Assembly: GCF_030362795.1 (NCBI RefSeq)
Contig: NZ_JAUCBM010000002.1
Span: 124,001-188,000, forward strand
Source: Pseudochrobactrum kiredjianiae
GTDB taxonomy: Bacteria > Pseudomonadota > Alphaproteobacteria > Rhizobiales > Rhizobiaceae
Direction of reading: 5' to 3'
Length of the DNA stretch: 64,000 nt
The notes beneath the pieces were generated by a model. That model saw only the letters and a list, made by a program, of their open reading frames with translations, ran no database searches and had not been told where the DNA came from. The translations under genes were made by a program, and so were the position numbers. This document shows positions 25,940-31,306 of this stretch, piece after piece (position 1 is the stretch's first letter; each line of letters begins with the position of its first letter).

Positions 25940-26503
25940 ATGCAACTTCTCAAACATCATCAGCACCGCCGGATGCCGTGGAAAAACGGCGGCGGTGTTA
26001 CCGTTGAAATCGCTGTTTTTCCGGCAAATGCGTCAGTCGATAATTTCGACTGGCGTCTCAGCACCGCCACTGTGGCCAGTGACGGGCCGTTTTCGGTTTT
26101 TACCGGCATTGACCGTACTTTATCCGTACTGGAAGGTGACGGGATTACCCTGTCCGTTGAAGGTCTGGCAGACCAGCAACTGAAAGGTGAAACACCGCCC
26201 TTTTCATTTCCGGCAGACAGCCCGACCAGTGCGAAACTGCTCGGCTCCGCAATCACAGATCTGAATGTGATGACACGGCGCGGGCGTTTTACGCATCAGG
26301 TCAGCCGTCATGTGGTGACAGAGCCAGTCACCCGATCTCTGAACGGAGCAACTGTGCTGATATTCTGCGGCAAAGGTACGGTGCAAGCCGGAGATACACA
26401 GCTTGAAGTCAATGATTGTCTGCGGTTTGAGCACTGTAACCATACAGAGCTTCAGCTTTCCGGTAATGGCACAGTCTTTGTGATTGTGCTCAATCCGGCC
26501 TGA
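25940..26503 (+). CDS. hutD: HutD-family protein
   Basis: A 187-residue bicupin-like protein of the HutD family, recognised by the N-terminal 'HRRMPWKNGGGVTVEIAVFP' motif. HutD is not an enzyme of the pathway; in Pseudomonas it limits hut expression. It starts immediately after the YjiH-type stop (TAA-ATG), so the two are translated together. Its last 52 bases overlap the convergent gluconokinase gene. Confidence 0.88.
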   Translation: MQLLKHHQHRRMPWKNGGGVTVEIAVFPANASVDNFDWRLSTATVASDGPFSVFTGIDRTLSVLEGDGITLSVEGLADQQLKGETPPFSFPADSPTSAKLLGSAITDLNVMTRRGRFTHQVSRHVVTEPVTRSLNGATVLIFCGKGTVQAGDTQLEVNDCLRFEHCNHTELQLSGNGTVFVIVLNPA

Positions 26504-26988
26504 TCTTCAAGCCATGTTTTGCAGGTTGCAAGCATGGTGTTCACGGGTTGATCGCAGGACAATAGCAATGTCGCCGGTTCACCCTGCGGGATTTCGAAAC
26601 TTGCCAGTTGCGAAGTGAGTAAAGATGCGGGCATAAAGTGCCCGTGTCTTGCCTGCATTCTCGCAGCGATAATGTCAGGATCGCAAGTCAGGCACATGAA
26701 ATATAACGGTTCGACAGTCTGTTCACGCAACAAATCCCGATAGGATTTTTTGAGCGCTGAACAACTCGCAATAGCGCCCTCTGTCCCGCTTGAAAGAGCC
26801 GCTGCAATGGCTTTCAGCCAAGGCAGACGATCAGCATCATCCAGCGGCTGACCGGCCTGCATTTTCACAATATTACTTTGCGGATGCAGATCATCCCCCT
26901 CAATAAAGGGCAATGTCAGAGCCTGCGCCAAAGCTGAAGCCAGTGTTGATTTGCCGGAACCGGAAACGCCCATCACTATAATCCGCAC
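26452..26988 (-). CDS. gntK: Gluconokinase
   Basis: A 178-residue GntK-type kinase phosphorylating D-gluconate to 6-phosphogluconate. The P-loop 'GVSGSGKST' lies at about residues 7-15, followed by the diagnostic 'EGDDLHPQSNIVKM' and 'PLDDADRLPWL' segments. The start is a GTG preceded by GAGAGG. It lies 30 bases after the ThiY-like gene on the same strand, so it probably shares the riboswitch-controlled transcript, an unusual partner for a thiamine importer. It overlaps hutD tail to tail. Confidence 0.9.
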   Translation of the reverse strand: MRIIVMGVSGSGKSTLASALAQALTLPFIEGDDLHPQSNIVKMQAGQPLDDADRLPWLKAIAAALSSGTEGAIASCSALKKSYRDLLREQTVEPLYFMCLTCDPDIIAARMQARHGHFMPASLLTSQLASFEIPQGEPATLLLSCDQPVNTMLATCKTWLEDQAGLSTITKTVPLPES

Positions 26989-27018
26989 CGGTTCCGCCTC
27001 TCTGCTTAAGTTTTTATA

Positions 27019-28035
27019 TTAAGGCAGGAAATCATTGGTAAAATAGCTCGAAAAGTCCGGTTTTTCCTGCAACACCGCACCTTCTTTATCATAGAGAATG
27101 CCTGCCTTAAACAAGAACTCACCCAAAGCCAGCATGGTTTCCGGCCGCATTTTACCAATTGTACCGTTACTATCGCGCAGGAAATGCCCGTCATTCAATG
27201 CCTTCAGTGAAGCGCGGATCAGCTTGTCATCCGTCAGCACATCCTGATTGCCGCGAATGAGAATATCGGCCGCTTCATCGGCATGATCCGCTGCAAAAGC
27301 AAATCCGCGCTGCGTGGCACTCAAAAATGCCTTTGCCGTTTCCGGATTATCTTTGAGATATTTGCCTGAGGAAACCAGCAGCGTGGTATGCTGATCCGGT
27401 ATACCGTAATCCGAGTAGCGGAACGACCGCTGTTTCACACCTTCCAGCTTGTTTTTCACACCTTCCCATGTGGCGATTTCCAGCGTGAAATCCACCGCAC
27501 CATTGGCCAGCGCCTCATAAGCGGAGGTGCCGAGTGTCACAATTTCAAACTCACCTCTGCCGCCATCGGCACGGATCAGGGTTTCAATCAGCTTACGCTC
27601 CCAATTGGAGCCAAAACCAGCATAGGTTTTACCGTCGAGATCTTTCGGCGACTGAATATCCTGCCGGTCATCCATAAACACCAGACGGCCGGTTTCGTGC
27701 TGTACCACGGCATAGGTGCCGACAAGATCAGCACCGGCAGCGCGTTGCGCAAACAGACCGGTGGAACTGACAATGCCGAAATCCGCCGCACCATTGGCGA
27801 CCAGCAATCCGGCTGATGTGTCGGAATAAGGCAGGATTGTTACATCCAGTCCTGCTTCTTTGTAAAAACCCTGATCCCGGGCAATGAACATACCGATATG
27901 ATTGGTATTCACCGTCCAGTCGAGCGCGACAGTCACTTTCGCCATATCTTTGGCGTAAGCAGAGATTGGTAAAACGCTCATCGCGCCGGACAGAGCCAAT
28001 GCGGATAACAGGCGACGACGATTCAAAATTGCCAT
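27019..28035 (-). CDS. thiY: ThiY-like thiamine-precursor substrate-binding protein
   Basis: A 338-residue NMT1/THI5-like periplasmic binding protein with a signal peptide (basic N-terminus N-R-R-R-L-L, cleavage after A-Y-A near residue 28). It then shows the family pattern 'VALDWTVNTNHIGMFIARDQ' and 'SWE'-type pyrimidine-pocket region ('GFGSNWERKL'). The TPP riboswitch ahead of the operon supports a thiamine-precursor (formylaminopyrimidine or HMP) ligand over other NMT1-family ligands such as sulfonates. Confidence 0.85.
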   Translation of the reverse strand: MAILNRRRLLSALALSGAMSVLPISAYAKDMAKVTVALDWTVNTNHIGMFIARDQGFYKEAGLDVTILPYSDTSAGLLVANGAADFGIVSSTGLFAQRAAGADLVGTYAVVQHETGRLVFMDDRQDIQSPKDLDGKTYAGFGSNWERKLIETLIRADGGRGEFEIVTLGTSAYEALANGAVDFTLEIATWEGVKNKLEGVKQRSFRYSDYGIPDQHTTLLVSSGKYLKDNPETAKAFLSATQRGFAFAADHADEAADILIRGNQDVLTDDKLIRASLKALNDGHFLRDSNGTIGKMRPETMLALGEFLFKAGILYDKEGAVLQEKPDFSSYFTNDFLP

Positions 28036-28045
28036 GATTGCTTCC

Positions 28046-28795
28046 TTATGAATTCAAGAGGAGATCTAGTATTCCGGCTTCAAGCGCTGCGGCTTTTTCC
28101 AATGCGGTTTTGTGCATGCTGCTTCGTCTCGGGCGCGGCAAATCGACGGTCACCTCATGCACGACCCTGCTCGGACGAGAAGACAACACATAAATCCGGT
28201 CGGAGAGATAAACCGCCTCGCGCACATCATGGGTAATCAGCAAAGCCGTCCAGCGATGGCTCTGCCACATGCTTTCCAGCCAGTGCTGCATTGCAGCGCG
28301 GGTTAGGGCATCAAGCGCACCAAATGGTTCATCCAGCAGCAGCATTTTACGTTGCTGAACGACTGTGCGCAGCAAAGCCGCACGCTGGCGCATGCCCCCT
28401 GATAATTCCGCCGGATAAGCCTGTTCAAAACCGGCAAGGCCGAATTTCTCAAACAGCGGCTCAGCTAATTTGCGGGCATCTTTGCGGCTCATGCCCTGCA
28501 CTTCCAGCCCCAGCGTGGTATTATCAATCATGCACCGCCACGGCATCAAAGCATCGCGCTGCGGCATGAAAGCAAAGGCATTGCTTGCCTTCACTAAGGG
28601 CGCACCATCAAACAGGATTGAACCCTTTTGCGGCTGTTCGGCACCGGTCAGCAGATTGAAAATCGTGGTTTTTCCGGCACCTGACGGCCCCAGAACCGAG
28701 ACAAACTCACCCTCCGCCACATGCAGCGAAATATCCCCTAACACTTCCAGCGAGCCGAAAGATTTGGCGACAGATTGCAATTGCAGACGTGTCAT
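28046..28795 (-). CDS. thiZ: ThiZ-like ABC transporter ATPase
   Basis: A 249-residue ATPase of the nitrate/taurine/pyrimidine importer class. Walker A is 'GPSGAGKTTIFNLL', the signature is 'LSGGMRQRAALLRT' and Walker B is 'KMLLLDEPFGALD'. I use the ATG at 28795, which shares one base with the permease stop (TAATG); upstream in-frame ATGs lie inside the permease gene. Confidence 0.87.
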   Translation of the reverse strand: MTRLQLQSVAKSFGSLEVLGDISLHVAEGEFVSVLGPSGAGKTTIFNLLTGAEQPQKGSILFDGAPLVKASNAFAFMPQRDALMPWRCMIDNTTLGLEVQGMSRKDARKLAEPLFEKFGLAGFEQAYPAELSGGMRQRAALLRTVVQQRKMLLLDEPFGALDALTRAAMQHWLESMWQSHRWTALLITHDVREAVYLSDRIYVLSSRPSRVVHEVTVDLPRPRRSSMHKTALEKAAALEAGILDLLLNS

Positions 28796-29613
28796 TATTC
28801 TGCACCCCGCTCTGTTTTCAGCCACGGGGCAACCCATTTTTGTATCAGCAATGTCAGGCCAAACAGGCTTAATGTCAGCGTCGCGCTGATAAACACTGCT
28901 GCCAGCACCAGATCAGGCCGGAAGTTGTTTTTGGCATTGAGGATATAAATACCTAAGCCTTTGAAGGCACCGGCATATTCAGCAAATATCGCACCGACAA
29001 CTGCATAGGTAATCGAAATGCGTAAGCCTGCGAAAAAATATGGCAACGCCGAGGGAATACGCGCCAACCGGAAAATCGTCCAGCGACCAGCGCCCATAGA
29101 AGACAGCAAATGCTCAATCTCTTTATCTGTTGCGGCATAGCCCTGCACCAGCGCCACGAGCATCGGGAAAAAGGTGACGAGAGAGACCAGCAGAATTTTC
29201 GGGAGCAGGCCAAAGCCGAACCACAGCACAATCAGCGGTGCAATGGCGATCAGCGGCAGGGTCTGACTGATAATGAAAACCGGAAACAGCGCCCGCCGCA
29301 GCCAGATATAGCGATCAATCAGGACGGAGAGCAAACAGGCCGTGACCACCGAACAGCTGAAACCAATCAGCGTGGCACGGATTGTCGGCAGGGTATTGTC
29401 CCATAAAGCTTGGCGATGCAGCACAATCTGCTGCAAAATCCGGCTTGGTGCCGGCAATACGGATGGTGCAATGCCGGACAGAACAACATAGCTTTCCCAG
29501 AACAGAAAGATTGCGCCAACAGACAAGATTGCAGGAAGGATTCTGGACAGATGATCCGATGACTTGCGTACAGATTGCGTGCAATCTGCCTCAGTCGCTT
29601 GATAAACAGACAT
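28795..29613 (-). CDS. thiX: ThiX-like ABC transporter permease
   Basis: A 272-residue inner-membrane permease with about six helices and the cytoplasmic loop 'EHLLSSMGAGRWTIFRLARI'. It is the first gene after the TPP riboswitch, so the operon runs thiX-thiZ-thiY-gntK. Its stop overlaps the ATPase start by one base. The start follows a GGAAC sequence within a roughly 120-base leader. Confidence 0.85.
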   Translation of the reverse strand: MSVYQATEADCTQSVRKSSDHLSRILPAILSVGAIFLFWESYVVLSGIAPSVLPAPSRILQQIVLHRQALWDNTLPTIRATLIGFSCSVVTACLLSVLIDRYIWLRRALFPVFIISQTLPLIAIAPLIVLWFGFGLLPKILLVSLVTFFPMLVALVQGYAATDKEIEHLLSSMGAGRWTIFRLARIPSALPYFFAGLRISITYAVVGAIFAEYAGAFKGLGIYILNAKNNFRPDLVLAAVFISATLTLSLFGLTLLIQKWVAPWLKTERGAE

Positions 29614-29734
29614 GTTTCAGTTCCACAGATAAGAATAAAATCAAATTTGCTGTGAAATGAATCAGGTCAGCCGGAAACACGCCGCCGAAAATACCGTGAC
29701 AAAAGAAGTGGAAATTTGTGCGCCAGAAAACATG

Positions 29735-29832
29735 GTCCGCCTCGCTCCGCTAGAATTACCCAGATCAGCTTTAGAGTCCGCCAGTTTGTCACTGACATCT
29801 CAGCCCCGGCACTACGGAGCCCCCCTGTGGAT
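29735..29832 (-). ncRNA. TPP riboswitch (THI box)
   Basis: On the minus strand the leader of the thiX operon contains the THI-box landmarks in order: a G-run followed by a CTCCG/CGGGG P3 hairpin, the pyrimidine-sensing CTGAGAT (around 29798-29804), and the pyrophosphate-sensing arm CTGATCTGGGTAATTCTAGCGGAG. The last ends near 29745, with GCGA where GGGA is usual. It sits about 120 bases before the thiX ATG. Binding of thiamine pyrophosphate would lower expression. I do not see a clear terminator in the expression platform, so translational control is more likely. Confidence 0.88.
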
Positions 29833-29871
29833 GCGCGAGATTAAACACATATTGCAGCACTTTGAAAGAGC

Positions 29872-29914
29872 AATAAATAAAAACGGCGCATGTGATTGCT
29901 CACATGCGCCGTTT
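29872..29914 (-). terminator. Rho-independent terminator of the aminotransferase gene
   Basis: A perfect 15-bp stem (29881-29895 with 29900-29914) with a four-base loop, followed on the minus strand by TTTTTATTTATT. It separates the aminotransferase transcript from the downstream thiamine leader. Confidence 0.9.
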
Positions 29915-29935
29915 CATGAGATCTGTCCGAACAGA

Positions 29936-31306
29936 TTATTTCTTCACTTCAGCAGCCACTTGGTCCAATGCCTTAGCGAAAGCGCCAACCATTTCATCAA
30001 CCTGTTTTTCATTGATGATCAGCGGCGGGCAGAATGCAACCGTATCCAGCATGTTGCGGCAGATGACGCCGTTGTTGAGCAGCGCATTATTTGCCATCAG
30101 GCCGAGATTACCGGCTTTTTCCAGAGGCTCTTTGGTCTGCTTGTCAGCAACCAGTTCAACCGCTGCGATCAGGCCTTTACCGCGCACTTCACCCACCAGC
30201 GGATGATCTGCCAATTCGCGCAGACGTTTTTGCATATGCGCGCCAACGTTACGGGCATTATCGACCAGATTATTCTCTTCAATAATCTTGATATTTTCAT
30301 TGGCAACAGCAGCAGCCACCGGATGCGCACCACCGGTATAGCCATGACCGAATGTGCCAATACGGTTGCTCTCATCTGCCAATGGTTCAAACACCTTGTC
30401 ATTCACCAACAGTGCCGAAATCGGCAGGTAGGAAGAAGACAGCTGCTTGGAGAACACCATAATATCCGGCTGCATTTTGAAGGTTTCAGTCCCGAACATA
30501 TTGCCGGTACGGCCGAAACCGCAGATCACTTCATCCGCAATCAGCAGAATGTCGTATTTCTTGAGAACAGCCTGAATTTTTGCCCAATAGCTGTCCGGCG
30601 GCACCACAACACCACCGGCACCCATGATCGGCTCACCGATAAATGCAGCAATAGTATCAGGGCCTTCCGCAAGGATCATCGCTTCGAGATCAGCGGCCAT
30701 ACGGTCAGTGAACTGCTCTTCCGTTTCACCCGGCAGCGCTTCGCGCCAGTAGTGCGGACAGGATGTGTGCAGAATATTGGCAATCGGCAGATCGAAGGAC
30801 ATCTGGTTTGCCGGCAGGCCGGTGAGGCTTGCAGCAGCAATGGTCACACCGTGATAACCGCGCTTACGGCTGATGATCTTTTTGCGCTGCGGCTGACCGA
30901 GCGCATTGGAACGGTACCACAGCATTTTAATTGCGGTATCATTGGCCTCGGAACCGGAATTGGTGAAGAAGGCTTTGCTCATCGGCACCGGCGCCATCGT
31001 CACCAGTTTTTCTGCCAGATCGATCACCGGACCATGCGATTTATGGCCGAAATTGTGGTAATAAGGCAGTTTCTGCATCTGTTTGGTGGCAGCATCAACA
31101 AGACGCTGTTCCGAGAAGCCGACACCTACGCTCCACAGACCGGCCAGACCTTCAATATAGCGCTTGCCGTTATTGTCCTCGACATAGATCCCGTCACCTT
31201 TTTCAAGGATCATCGGTCCGATTTCCTGATGACGACGCGCATTCGTGTAAGAATGAAGGTGATACTGAATATCACGCGCTTCAGGTGAATTCGGCTGCTT
31301 ATCCAT
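29936..31306 (-). CDS. Class III omega-aminotransferase
   Basis: A 456-residue PLP aminotransferase of subgroup III (beta-alanine:pyruvate or amine transaminase type). Visible motifs are 'AFFTNSGSEANDTAIKML' for phosphate binding, 'GYHGVTIAAASLTG', 'ILLIADEVICGFGRTG' with the PLP-ring aspartate, and the Schiff-base lysine K287 in 'DIMVFSKQLSSSYLP'. The length matches characterised omega-transaminases. It moves an amino group from an amine or omega-amino acid to pyruvate or a similar acceptor. The donor cannot be told from sequence. A GntR-type regulator is divergent, 393 bases away. Confidence 0.88.
   Translation of the reverse strand: MDKQPNSPEARDIQYHLHSYTNARRHQEIGPMILEKGDGIYVEDNNGKRYIEGLAGLWSVGVGFSEQRLVDAATKQMQKLPYYHNFGHKSHGPVIDLAEKLVTMAPVPMSKAFFTNSGSEANDTAIKMLWYRSNALGQPQRKKIISRKRGYHGVTIAAASLTGLPANQMSFDLPIANILHTSCPHYWREALPGETEEQFTDRMAADLEAMILAEGPDTIAAFIGEPIMGAGGVVVPPDSYWAKIQAVLKKYDILLIADEVICGFGRTGNMFGTETFKMQPDIMVFSKQLSSSYLPISALLVNDKVFEPLADESNRIGTFGHGYTGGAHPVAAAVANENIKIIEENNLVDNARNVGAHMQKRLRELADHPLVGEVRGKGLIAAVELVADKQTKEPLEKAGNLGLMANNALLNNGVICRNMLDTVAFCPPLIINEKQVDEMVGAFAKALDQVAAEVKK

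Follow-up and report, generated by a model that had tools for sequence, protein, structure and literature searches.

A ykoF-type TPP riboswitch with a truncated target gene ahead of thiXZY and gntK in Pseudochrobactrum

The window, a stretch of 64,000 nucleotides from Pseudochrobactrum kiredjianiae, carries on its minus strand a TPP riboswitch, a 23-codon open reading frame that we read as the remnant of a ykoF start (hereafter the stub), and the genes thiX, thiZ, thiY and gntK. We propose, with a probability of roughly 55%, that TPP regulates the importer by way of a relay with two steps, from the stub start to a hairpin and on to thiX, with gntK as a more weakly controlled tail. The P4/P1 region of the riboswitch itself carries a Shine-Dalgarno-like sequence for the following start codon; judging from that position, bound TPP would block this start, and when TPP is absent or low, ribosomes would initiate on the stub. 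In relatives, this start belongs to ykoF, with thiX following in about half of them, and in Pseudochrobactrum, ykoF has been deleted down to 23 codons with its start retained. The ribosome-binding site of thiX would be concealed by a hairpin beginning at or just past the stub stop codon, which a ribosome finishing the stub would open, so that thiX could be translated by unmasking or reinitiation. TPP would thereby still govern the importer, and gntK would come last on what is probably one shared transcript, as a genus-specific addition under weaker TPP control.

Locus organization

The contig that contains the window is 385,876 bases long, and the whole genome comprises 4,461,386 bases. On the minus strand, a class-III aminotransferase gene is followed by a terminator-like hairpin, the riboswitch, thiX, thiZ, thiY and gntK (Table 1), and the riboswitch transcript presumably starts downstream of that hairpin. 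hutD and further hut genes converge on the thiX-gntK block from the opposite side; the 3' ends of gntK (minus strand) and hutD (plus strand) overlap by 52 nt (26452-26503), and a convergent overlap recurs in relatives within the genus. The same block is located in two relatives on replicons of 463,690 and 432,745 bases that are annotated as plasmids. A record titled Bacillus subtilis strain SK6B4 (L039) also bears the Pseudochrobactrum block, with a ThiY identity of 96%, and is probably mislabelled.

Table 1. Features of the riboswitch-gntK locus (coordinates are positions in the window)
Feature	Coordinates	Strand	Basis
TPP riboswitch aptamer, P1 to P1, ykoF-type, P4 GCU/AGC instead of CCU/AGG	29736..29831	-	covariance model, alignment; Rfam alignment span 29724-29836
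Shine-Dalgarno-like GGAGCGAGG, P4 3' strand and P4-P1 junction	29740..29748	-	sequence; columns (nearly) invariant in alignment
ykoF stub: ATG, 23 codons (MFSGAQISTSFVTVFSAACFRLT), TGA; leftover ykoF start	29662..29733	-	comparison with YkoF loci
Predicted hairpin, 5' arm at or just past stub stop codon, pairing with thiX Shine-Dalgarno (GGAA)	29613..29664	-	folding
thiX, ABC permease	28795..29613	-	ORF and profile searches
thiZ, ABC ATPase	28046..28795	-	start set from relatives; longest ORF starts 28837
thiY, NMT1/THI5-type substrate-binding protein	27019..28035	-	PF09084 E 4.2e-57; PDB 3ix1 E 1.3e-22
gntK, GntK/IdnK-type gluconokinase, GTG start	26452..26988	-	TIGR01313 174.8 bits, cut-off 113.75; PDB 3t61 E 3.2e-41
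Terminator-like hairpin behind upstream aminotransferase gene	29880..29915	-	terminator consensus scan

A TPP riboswitch below the Rfam gathering score

A sequence-only reading of this DNA had proposed a TPP riboswitch at 29735-29832, to be checked with a covariance model. The model RF00059 matched with 48.6 bits and a genome-wide E-value of 2.9e-8, which bears out the proposal, but the score is below the gathering score of 54.3, and at that cut-off Rfam's default search reported nothing in the window. At a permissive threshold on 351 bases, the match was full length (model positions 1-105; E 9.8e-9). The proposed boundaries were nearly right, each falling one base outside the aptamer as aligned. 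A pattern for the variant core matched once in the window and never in 100 shuffles. The riboswitch is present in six of the seven genus genomes, with scores of 48.6-51.2 bits; in the remaining one, a 61% complete assembly, the contig begins 112 nt before thiY.

To describe the structure, we used an alignment of 27 sequences of this riboswitch type, including the window, with 26 distinct rows entering the covariation analysis. Changes on both sides were seen in 40 cells, compared with 12.8 in shuffles, and 87.3% of cells were paired. The aptamer covariation score was 0.208, compared with 0.105 for shuffled alignments and 0.038-0.092 for slid structures. P1 was the weakest helix, with 65% of cells paired and one pair failing in 18 of 26 rows. 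In P4, the model's innermost pair was unpaired in 25 of 26. The CUGAGA and UGAUC cores, which serve in ligand binding, were invariant over all 27 sequences, and the window retains all 42 columns that are invariant across the 27 rows, a count that includes the window itself. On this comparative sequence evidence, we regard the element as a confirmed TPP riboswitch of RF00059. It shares with that family the P1-P5 architecture, both core motifs and the position before thiamine-transport genes, and differs in its swapped P4 pair, in a J2-4 shorter by 2 than in the model, in a Shine-Dalgarno sequence on the 3' side of the aptamer and in its truncated target gene.

The low score, together with a G-U and a G.G pair within P2, could also indicate a riboswitch that is decaying along with ykoF and is now non-functional, since scores range from 51.3 to 71.8 bits in relatives of the same type beyond the genus. 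However, among eight Pseudochrobactrum sequences only 6 of 107 positions of the aptamer and spacer vary, compared with 25 of 49 in the gap after the stub, and no invariant column has been lost. Decay is thus highly improbable.

The three other TPP riboswitches in the source genome score 66-77 bits. A 70-bit TPP riboswitch at L197 1606-1704 (source genome C2:280105-280203) precedes a gene for an SDR oxidoreductase together with one for an NtaA/DmoA-type FMN monooxygenase, neither of them a classical thiamine gene. Matches of equal length and equal score occur in 7/7 genus genomes.

A riboswitch type linked to ykoF

The earlier reading had also remarked on GCGA where GGGA is common. The letters are correct, but they are not peculiar to this copy and instead form a signature of the ykoF-linked type. 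GCGA is half of a swapped P4 pair, GCU/AGC here and CCU/AGG in the genome's remaining TPP riboswitches, and the swapped pair is G-C in all 26 distinct rows. Across 56 TPP loci from the source genome, the genus and 13 further genomes, AGC(G/A)A occurred at 19/19 loci with ykoF or thiX within 1.5 kb and at 0/37 others. Fifty of these assignments came from a regular expression, and the other six, four AGGAA loci, L234 (AGCAA) and L235, were read from the letters. Because the motif is exclusive to ykoF- or thiX-linked loci in this set, GCGA is a type marker and not damage.

The window contains the core AGCUGAU...GCGKAGCR, by which the ykoF type is defined in the present analysis. A search with this pattern was positive for 66 of 384 genomes in Rhizobiaceae and for 5 of 367 in Alphaproteobacteria, with the source genome counted in both. 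We collected 88 loci, comprising all Rhizobiaceae pattern matches, the Alphaproteobacteria matches and named records, in which some species are perhaps doubled and five genus genomes are represented through named records with identical protein identities. An ATG lies 3-11 nt downstream of the core at every one of them. The first ATG past the core opens a YkoF-like protein at 76 loci (full YkoF taken as at least 195 aa with BLASTP E < 1e-20) and a stub with the same start at the remaining 12, of which 8 are from Pseudochrobactrum and 4 are of a Rhizobium type. thiX follows full ykoF on the same strand at 39 of the 76 loci in the downstream DNA examined, which extends beyond 4.5 kb in 3 of the 37 loci lacking thiX, 0.9-1.4 kb in 33 and 0.2 kb in one. 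The type therefore belongs primarily to ykoF, and at roughly half of the loci to thiXZY as well. An independent PF07615 search of 297 genomes of the order agreed with this: the domain was found in 14, with both halves present in 12, and in all 12 genomes with full-length YkoF, the TPP match lies directly against the ykoF match or overlaps it, to within two bases.

Several loci depart from this layout. L205, L208 and L209 have ykoF and the same riboswitch type, and no thiX of the family was found in more than 4.5 kb downstream. In Mesorhizobium, a second YkoF type precedes thiXZY (L043 2200-4292 and L047 3772-4332); the protein of L043 shares about 36% identity with the first type, and its gene overlaps a luciferase-like monooxygenase gene, and no TPP riboswitch was detected at either locus at E 0.05 in the DNA examined. 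The thiXZY genes of Rhizobium tumorigenes and R. rhododendri (L246, L253, L254) showed no ykoF match and no TPP riboswitch at E 0.05, and strain K84 (L247) has no thiX match, with a transposase gene preceding a shortened thiZ.

An arrangement of ykoF-thiXYZ under a THI element may well have been described already in 2002 comparative work on thiamine genes. Known ykoF-thiXZY operons of Alphaproteobacteria, for example that of Ketogulonicigenium vulgare, share the riboswitch type (71.8 bits there) and the transporter with the Pseudochrobactrum locus, whereas here ykoF is cut to 23 codons and gntK is added after thiY. YkoF of K. vulgare rose 5.3-fold after glutathione, which its authors interpret as thiamin-transport demand (PMC3284542). 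The main text of a regulon paper (PMC3766115) names neither ykoF nor gluconate.

The ykoF stub

No intact ykoF follows the window riboswitch, and a PF07615 search of the source genome gave 0 matches. We thus describe the riboswitch as a derived form of the ykoF type with a truncated target and not as a full member. The stub, which the sequence-only reading did not include, starts with the ATG at 29733, 7 nt past the GCGAG of the aptamer; its predicted translation begins MFSGAQIS, and its stop codon is at 29664-29662. Full YkoF proteins have F at residue 2 in 73/76, G at residue 4 in 76/76, A at residue 5 in 73/76 and Q at residue 6 in 75/76, and the most YkoF-like stub in Pseudochrobactrum, that of L042, matches at 77% over 13 residues. 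From this N-terminal resemblance and the shared start position, we conclude that the stub is a remnant of the ykoF start.

The ATG, 23 codons and TGA are retained in 8/8 Pseudochrobactrum sequences, and the two parts of the stub vary very differently (1 of 21 positions in codons 2-8, 20 of 45 in codons 9-23; Fisher 0.0013). Codons 2-8 are as invariant as the aptamer, and the aptamer and initiation region therefore form one conserved block. Codons 9-23 vary at a rate similar to the gap after the stub (Fisher 0.54). They show 25 synonymous and 162 nonsynonymous pairwise codon differences, compared with 2143 and 501 in thiX, and no protein-level constraint was detected in them among the eight sequences. 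Fifteen random codons of the stub's composition remain open in 65% of cases.

The four Rhizobium-type stubs (L212, L248, L308 and L309) have 42, 57, 57 and 68 codons and are followed by thiX with 66-72% identity. In three of them, the stub stop overlaps an ATG of the thiX frame region by one or more bases; this ATG is the annotated thiX start in L248 and an inferred one in the other two. In L309, the distance from the first base of the stub stop to the ATG is 14 nt. A single genus handle covers L212, L308 and L309, and L248 comes from Rhizobium sp. NLR16a; the Rhizobium-type truncation may therefore be a single event.

These patterns raise the possibility that the start of a lost gene was recruited as a regulatory device, with the 23-codon leader serving only to ferry ribosomes to the hairpin that hides thiX, and with a separate truncation in the Rhizobium type. 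We hold this view tentatively, at a shade under even odds. Our searches of the openly accessible literature yielded no description of the stub, none of a TPP riboswitch governing gntK, and no publication on a Pseudochrobactrum riboswitch; work retrieved for TPP riboswitches together with gluconokinase concerned plants. Among the matches listed for TPP riboswitches with upstream ORFs or reinitiation, the organisms were plants, yeast and other eukaryotes, and nothing relevant was among those listed for truncated or pseudogene ykoF with a TPP riboswitch.

A predicted hairpin between the stub and thiX

We folded the segment from the stub stop to codon 5 of thiX (66-67 nt). In 8/8 Pseudochrobactrum sequences, the predicted hairpin pairs the thiX GGAA with bases just past the stub stop, and at least two stop-codon bases lie inside the helix in 7/8, with the stop codon of L039 outside it. 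The probability that GGAA pairs with the stop codon plus 12 nt was 0.97-1.0 in 6/8 sequences and 0.72-0.78 in 2/8. In shuffles of four of the sequences, mean GGAA pairing was 0.13-0.19, and 3.5-7% reached 0.8. The hairpin alignment contains 10 double-changed cells, compared with 4.7 in shuffles, with 0 of 500 as high, and a covariation score of 0.195, compared with 0.050-0.109 for slid structures. Pairs changed on both sides (4; reached by 155/500 shuffles) and further pair types (8; 182/500) were not above shuffles. These values refer to a structure drawn from one row and to eight sequences that represent only about two divergent versions, with L244 misaligned by a gap.

When the stop codon plus 12 nt was masked, a crude proxy for a terminating ribosome, the ensemble energy of the segment weakened from between -10 and -16 kcal/mol to between -3 and -6 kcal/mol. 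GGAA was still 0.55-0.92 paired, in weak helices, after masking of the 5' arm. Overall, the folding gives moderate support to a translational coupling between stub and thiX. The closest tested precedent for such a relay is the B12 riboswitch of Mycobacterium tuberculosis ppe2, with an upstream ORF, termination-reinitiation and an AUGA overlap, studied there by experiment (PMC11260477). Both cases have a short ORF after a riboswitch and a downstream gene that depends on it, or here would depend on it; the likeness is one of how the systems work, and in Pseudochrobactrum it is drawn from conservation and folding. The ligand and the RNA differ, and here 48-49 nt with a predicted hairpin take the place of the overlap and the ORF is a gene remnant.

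Alternatively, the stub could be a mere relic, with TPP acting through Rho-dependent or other termination, or through mRNA decay, when the first start is untranslated, and with the hairpin being incidental. The lack of coding constraint beyond codon 8, the weak single-sequence z-scores of the hairpin (-0.17 to -2.99) and the partial pairing of the thiX Shine-Dalgarno sequence that persists with the 5' arm masked would all fit this explanation. However, conservation of the start region equals that of the aptamer, and the hairpin is maintained with compensatory changes in two sequence versions. We regard a mere relic as less likely than the relay.

For the first step of the proposed relay, TPP hiding the stub start did not emerge from secondary-structure prediction, which rather points the opposite way and has the tertiary contacts of the bound aptamer outside its model. 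In the ligand-free predicted fold (-66.6 kcal/mol), the stub AUG is unpaired with a probability of 0.02-0.03 and GAGG with 0.08-0.50. Enforcing the aptamer (-55.8) leaves GAG fully unpaired and AUG partly open, with GGAGC and the last G paired. The stability of the whole leader was not above that of shuffles (z 0.37, 0.08 and 0.38). The minimum free energy fold pointed to a ligand-free helix that would join GCUCCG of the P3 5' strand to CGGAGC of the P4 3' strand. This alternative was rejected: 96.7% of its cells are paired, with L234 and L249 breaking pairs within it, and 55/500 shuffles matched its covariation.

The thiXZY importer and thiamine physiology

The sequence-only reading had assigned the NMT1-type importer to uptake of a thiamine precursor, and the assignment held. 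An NMT1/THI5 binding protein related to pyrimidine-binding ThiY is encoded together with a permease and an ATPase, as in ThiXYZ importers. The nearest solved relatives of ThiY are 4nmy (E 2.4e-40) and then 3ix1, which binds N-formyl-aminopyrimidine. ThiC was absent from 7/7 genus genomes in a search whose control found it in 13/14, and of the remaining TPP riboswitches in the genome, one precedes the genes for ThiM, ThiE and ThiD and another a ThiB gene. With ThiC missing and ThiM/ThiE/ThiD behind a TPP riboswitch, import of a pyrimidine precursor fits, and the substrate would be formyl-aminopyrimidine or hydroxymethylpyrimidine.

gntK as a proposed genus-specific tail

The gene after thiY was the sole TIGR01313 match of the genome, 61 bits over the cut-off, and its solved relatives include the gluconokinase 3t61, which is the best match, and 1knq. 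By sequence, the product is a GntK/IdnK-type gluconokinase, differing from others of this family in its place behind a thiamine-precursor importer. The four genes are co-directional, and the 30-nt distance between thiY and gntK stated in the sequence-only reading is right if gntK starts at the GTG at 26988; in two relatives, the annotated gntK start lies 15 nt past thiY. Across the genus, the gap measures 30-33 nt and its sequence varies. The same reading had placed no terminator between these genes, in agreement with a terminator consensus scan of 26300-30100, which returned three sites (shuffled mean 5.1), none of them in the gap. A scan for sigma-70 consensus alone found no promoter-like site directly upstream of gntK.

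Synteny, which had been proposed as a check, supported a stable linkage within the genus: thiY-gntK order was found in 7/7 genus genomes and at 0/24 thiY loci outside the genus in the DNA examined, where one contig (L044) ends about 0.8 kb past thiY. The order thiY-gntK-hutD was also present in two named plasmid records. No gntK was found at the 76 full-ykoF loci in the downstream DNA examined. Among the family genomes searched, 36/61 have gntK above the TIGR01313 cut-off, and neither thiY nor hutD lay within 1.5 kb of it at any of 30 family loci outside the genus; four of those 30 showed distant ATPase matches to thiZ (26-42%).

Co-transcription of gntK with thiXZY is likely. The sequence-only reading had also suggested that TPP represses gntK. 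Such control is possible and may be weak, because the switch probably acts on translation of the first start, so that its effect on a distal gene that has a separate start would come only via polarity, mRNA decay or Rho. gntK might instead be a passenger, expressed from its own promoter in the 3' end of thiY or otherwise independently of TPP, with no regulatory meaning to its position. The confinement of the order to the genus (0/24, 0/76 and 0/30 loci outside it) and the separate start region of gntK are in line with this explanation, and we know of no link between the known role of gluconokinase and TPP. On the other hand, the gap is short and free of terminator-like sites, the order is retained throughout the genus, and the sigma-70 scan was negative just upstream. 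We place the passenger explanation somewhat below an even chance.

A third explanation is that gntK serves thiamine metabolism, either by phosphorylating a precursor or by supplying ribose units for pyrimidine synthesis. Its linkage to thiXZY is genus-wide, which this explanation would account for; however, the wide margin over the gluconokinase cut-off and the gluconokinase as best solved match argue against it, as does the absence of ThiC, which removes that route of de novo pyrimidine synthesis. The gluconate-to-pyrimidine role, with ribose for de novo synthesis, was dropped on account of this absence, and a thiamine-related function as a whole is the least probable explanation considered here.

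Implications

The AGCU/AGCG core may serve as a marker for ykoF-linked TPP riboswitches, part of which fall below the Rfam cut-off. The gntK case illustrates that operon distance alone is no proof that a distal gene obeys a translational riboswitch. If the proposed relay is true, riboswitches can retain a start codon after the coding sequence behind it is gone. This would suggest an origin route for bacterial leader ORFs, in which a regulated start outlives its decayed gene and the remaining stub links to the next gene.
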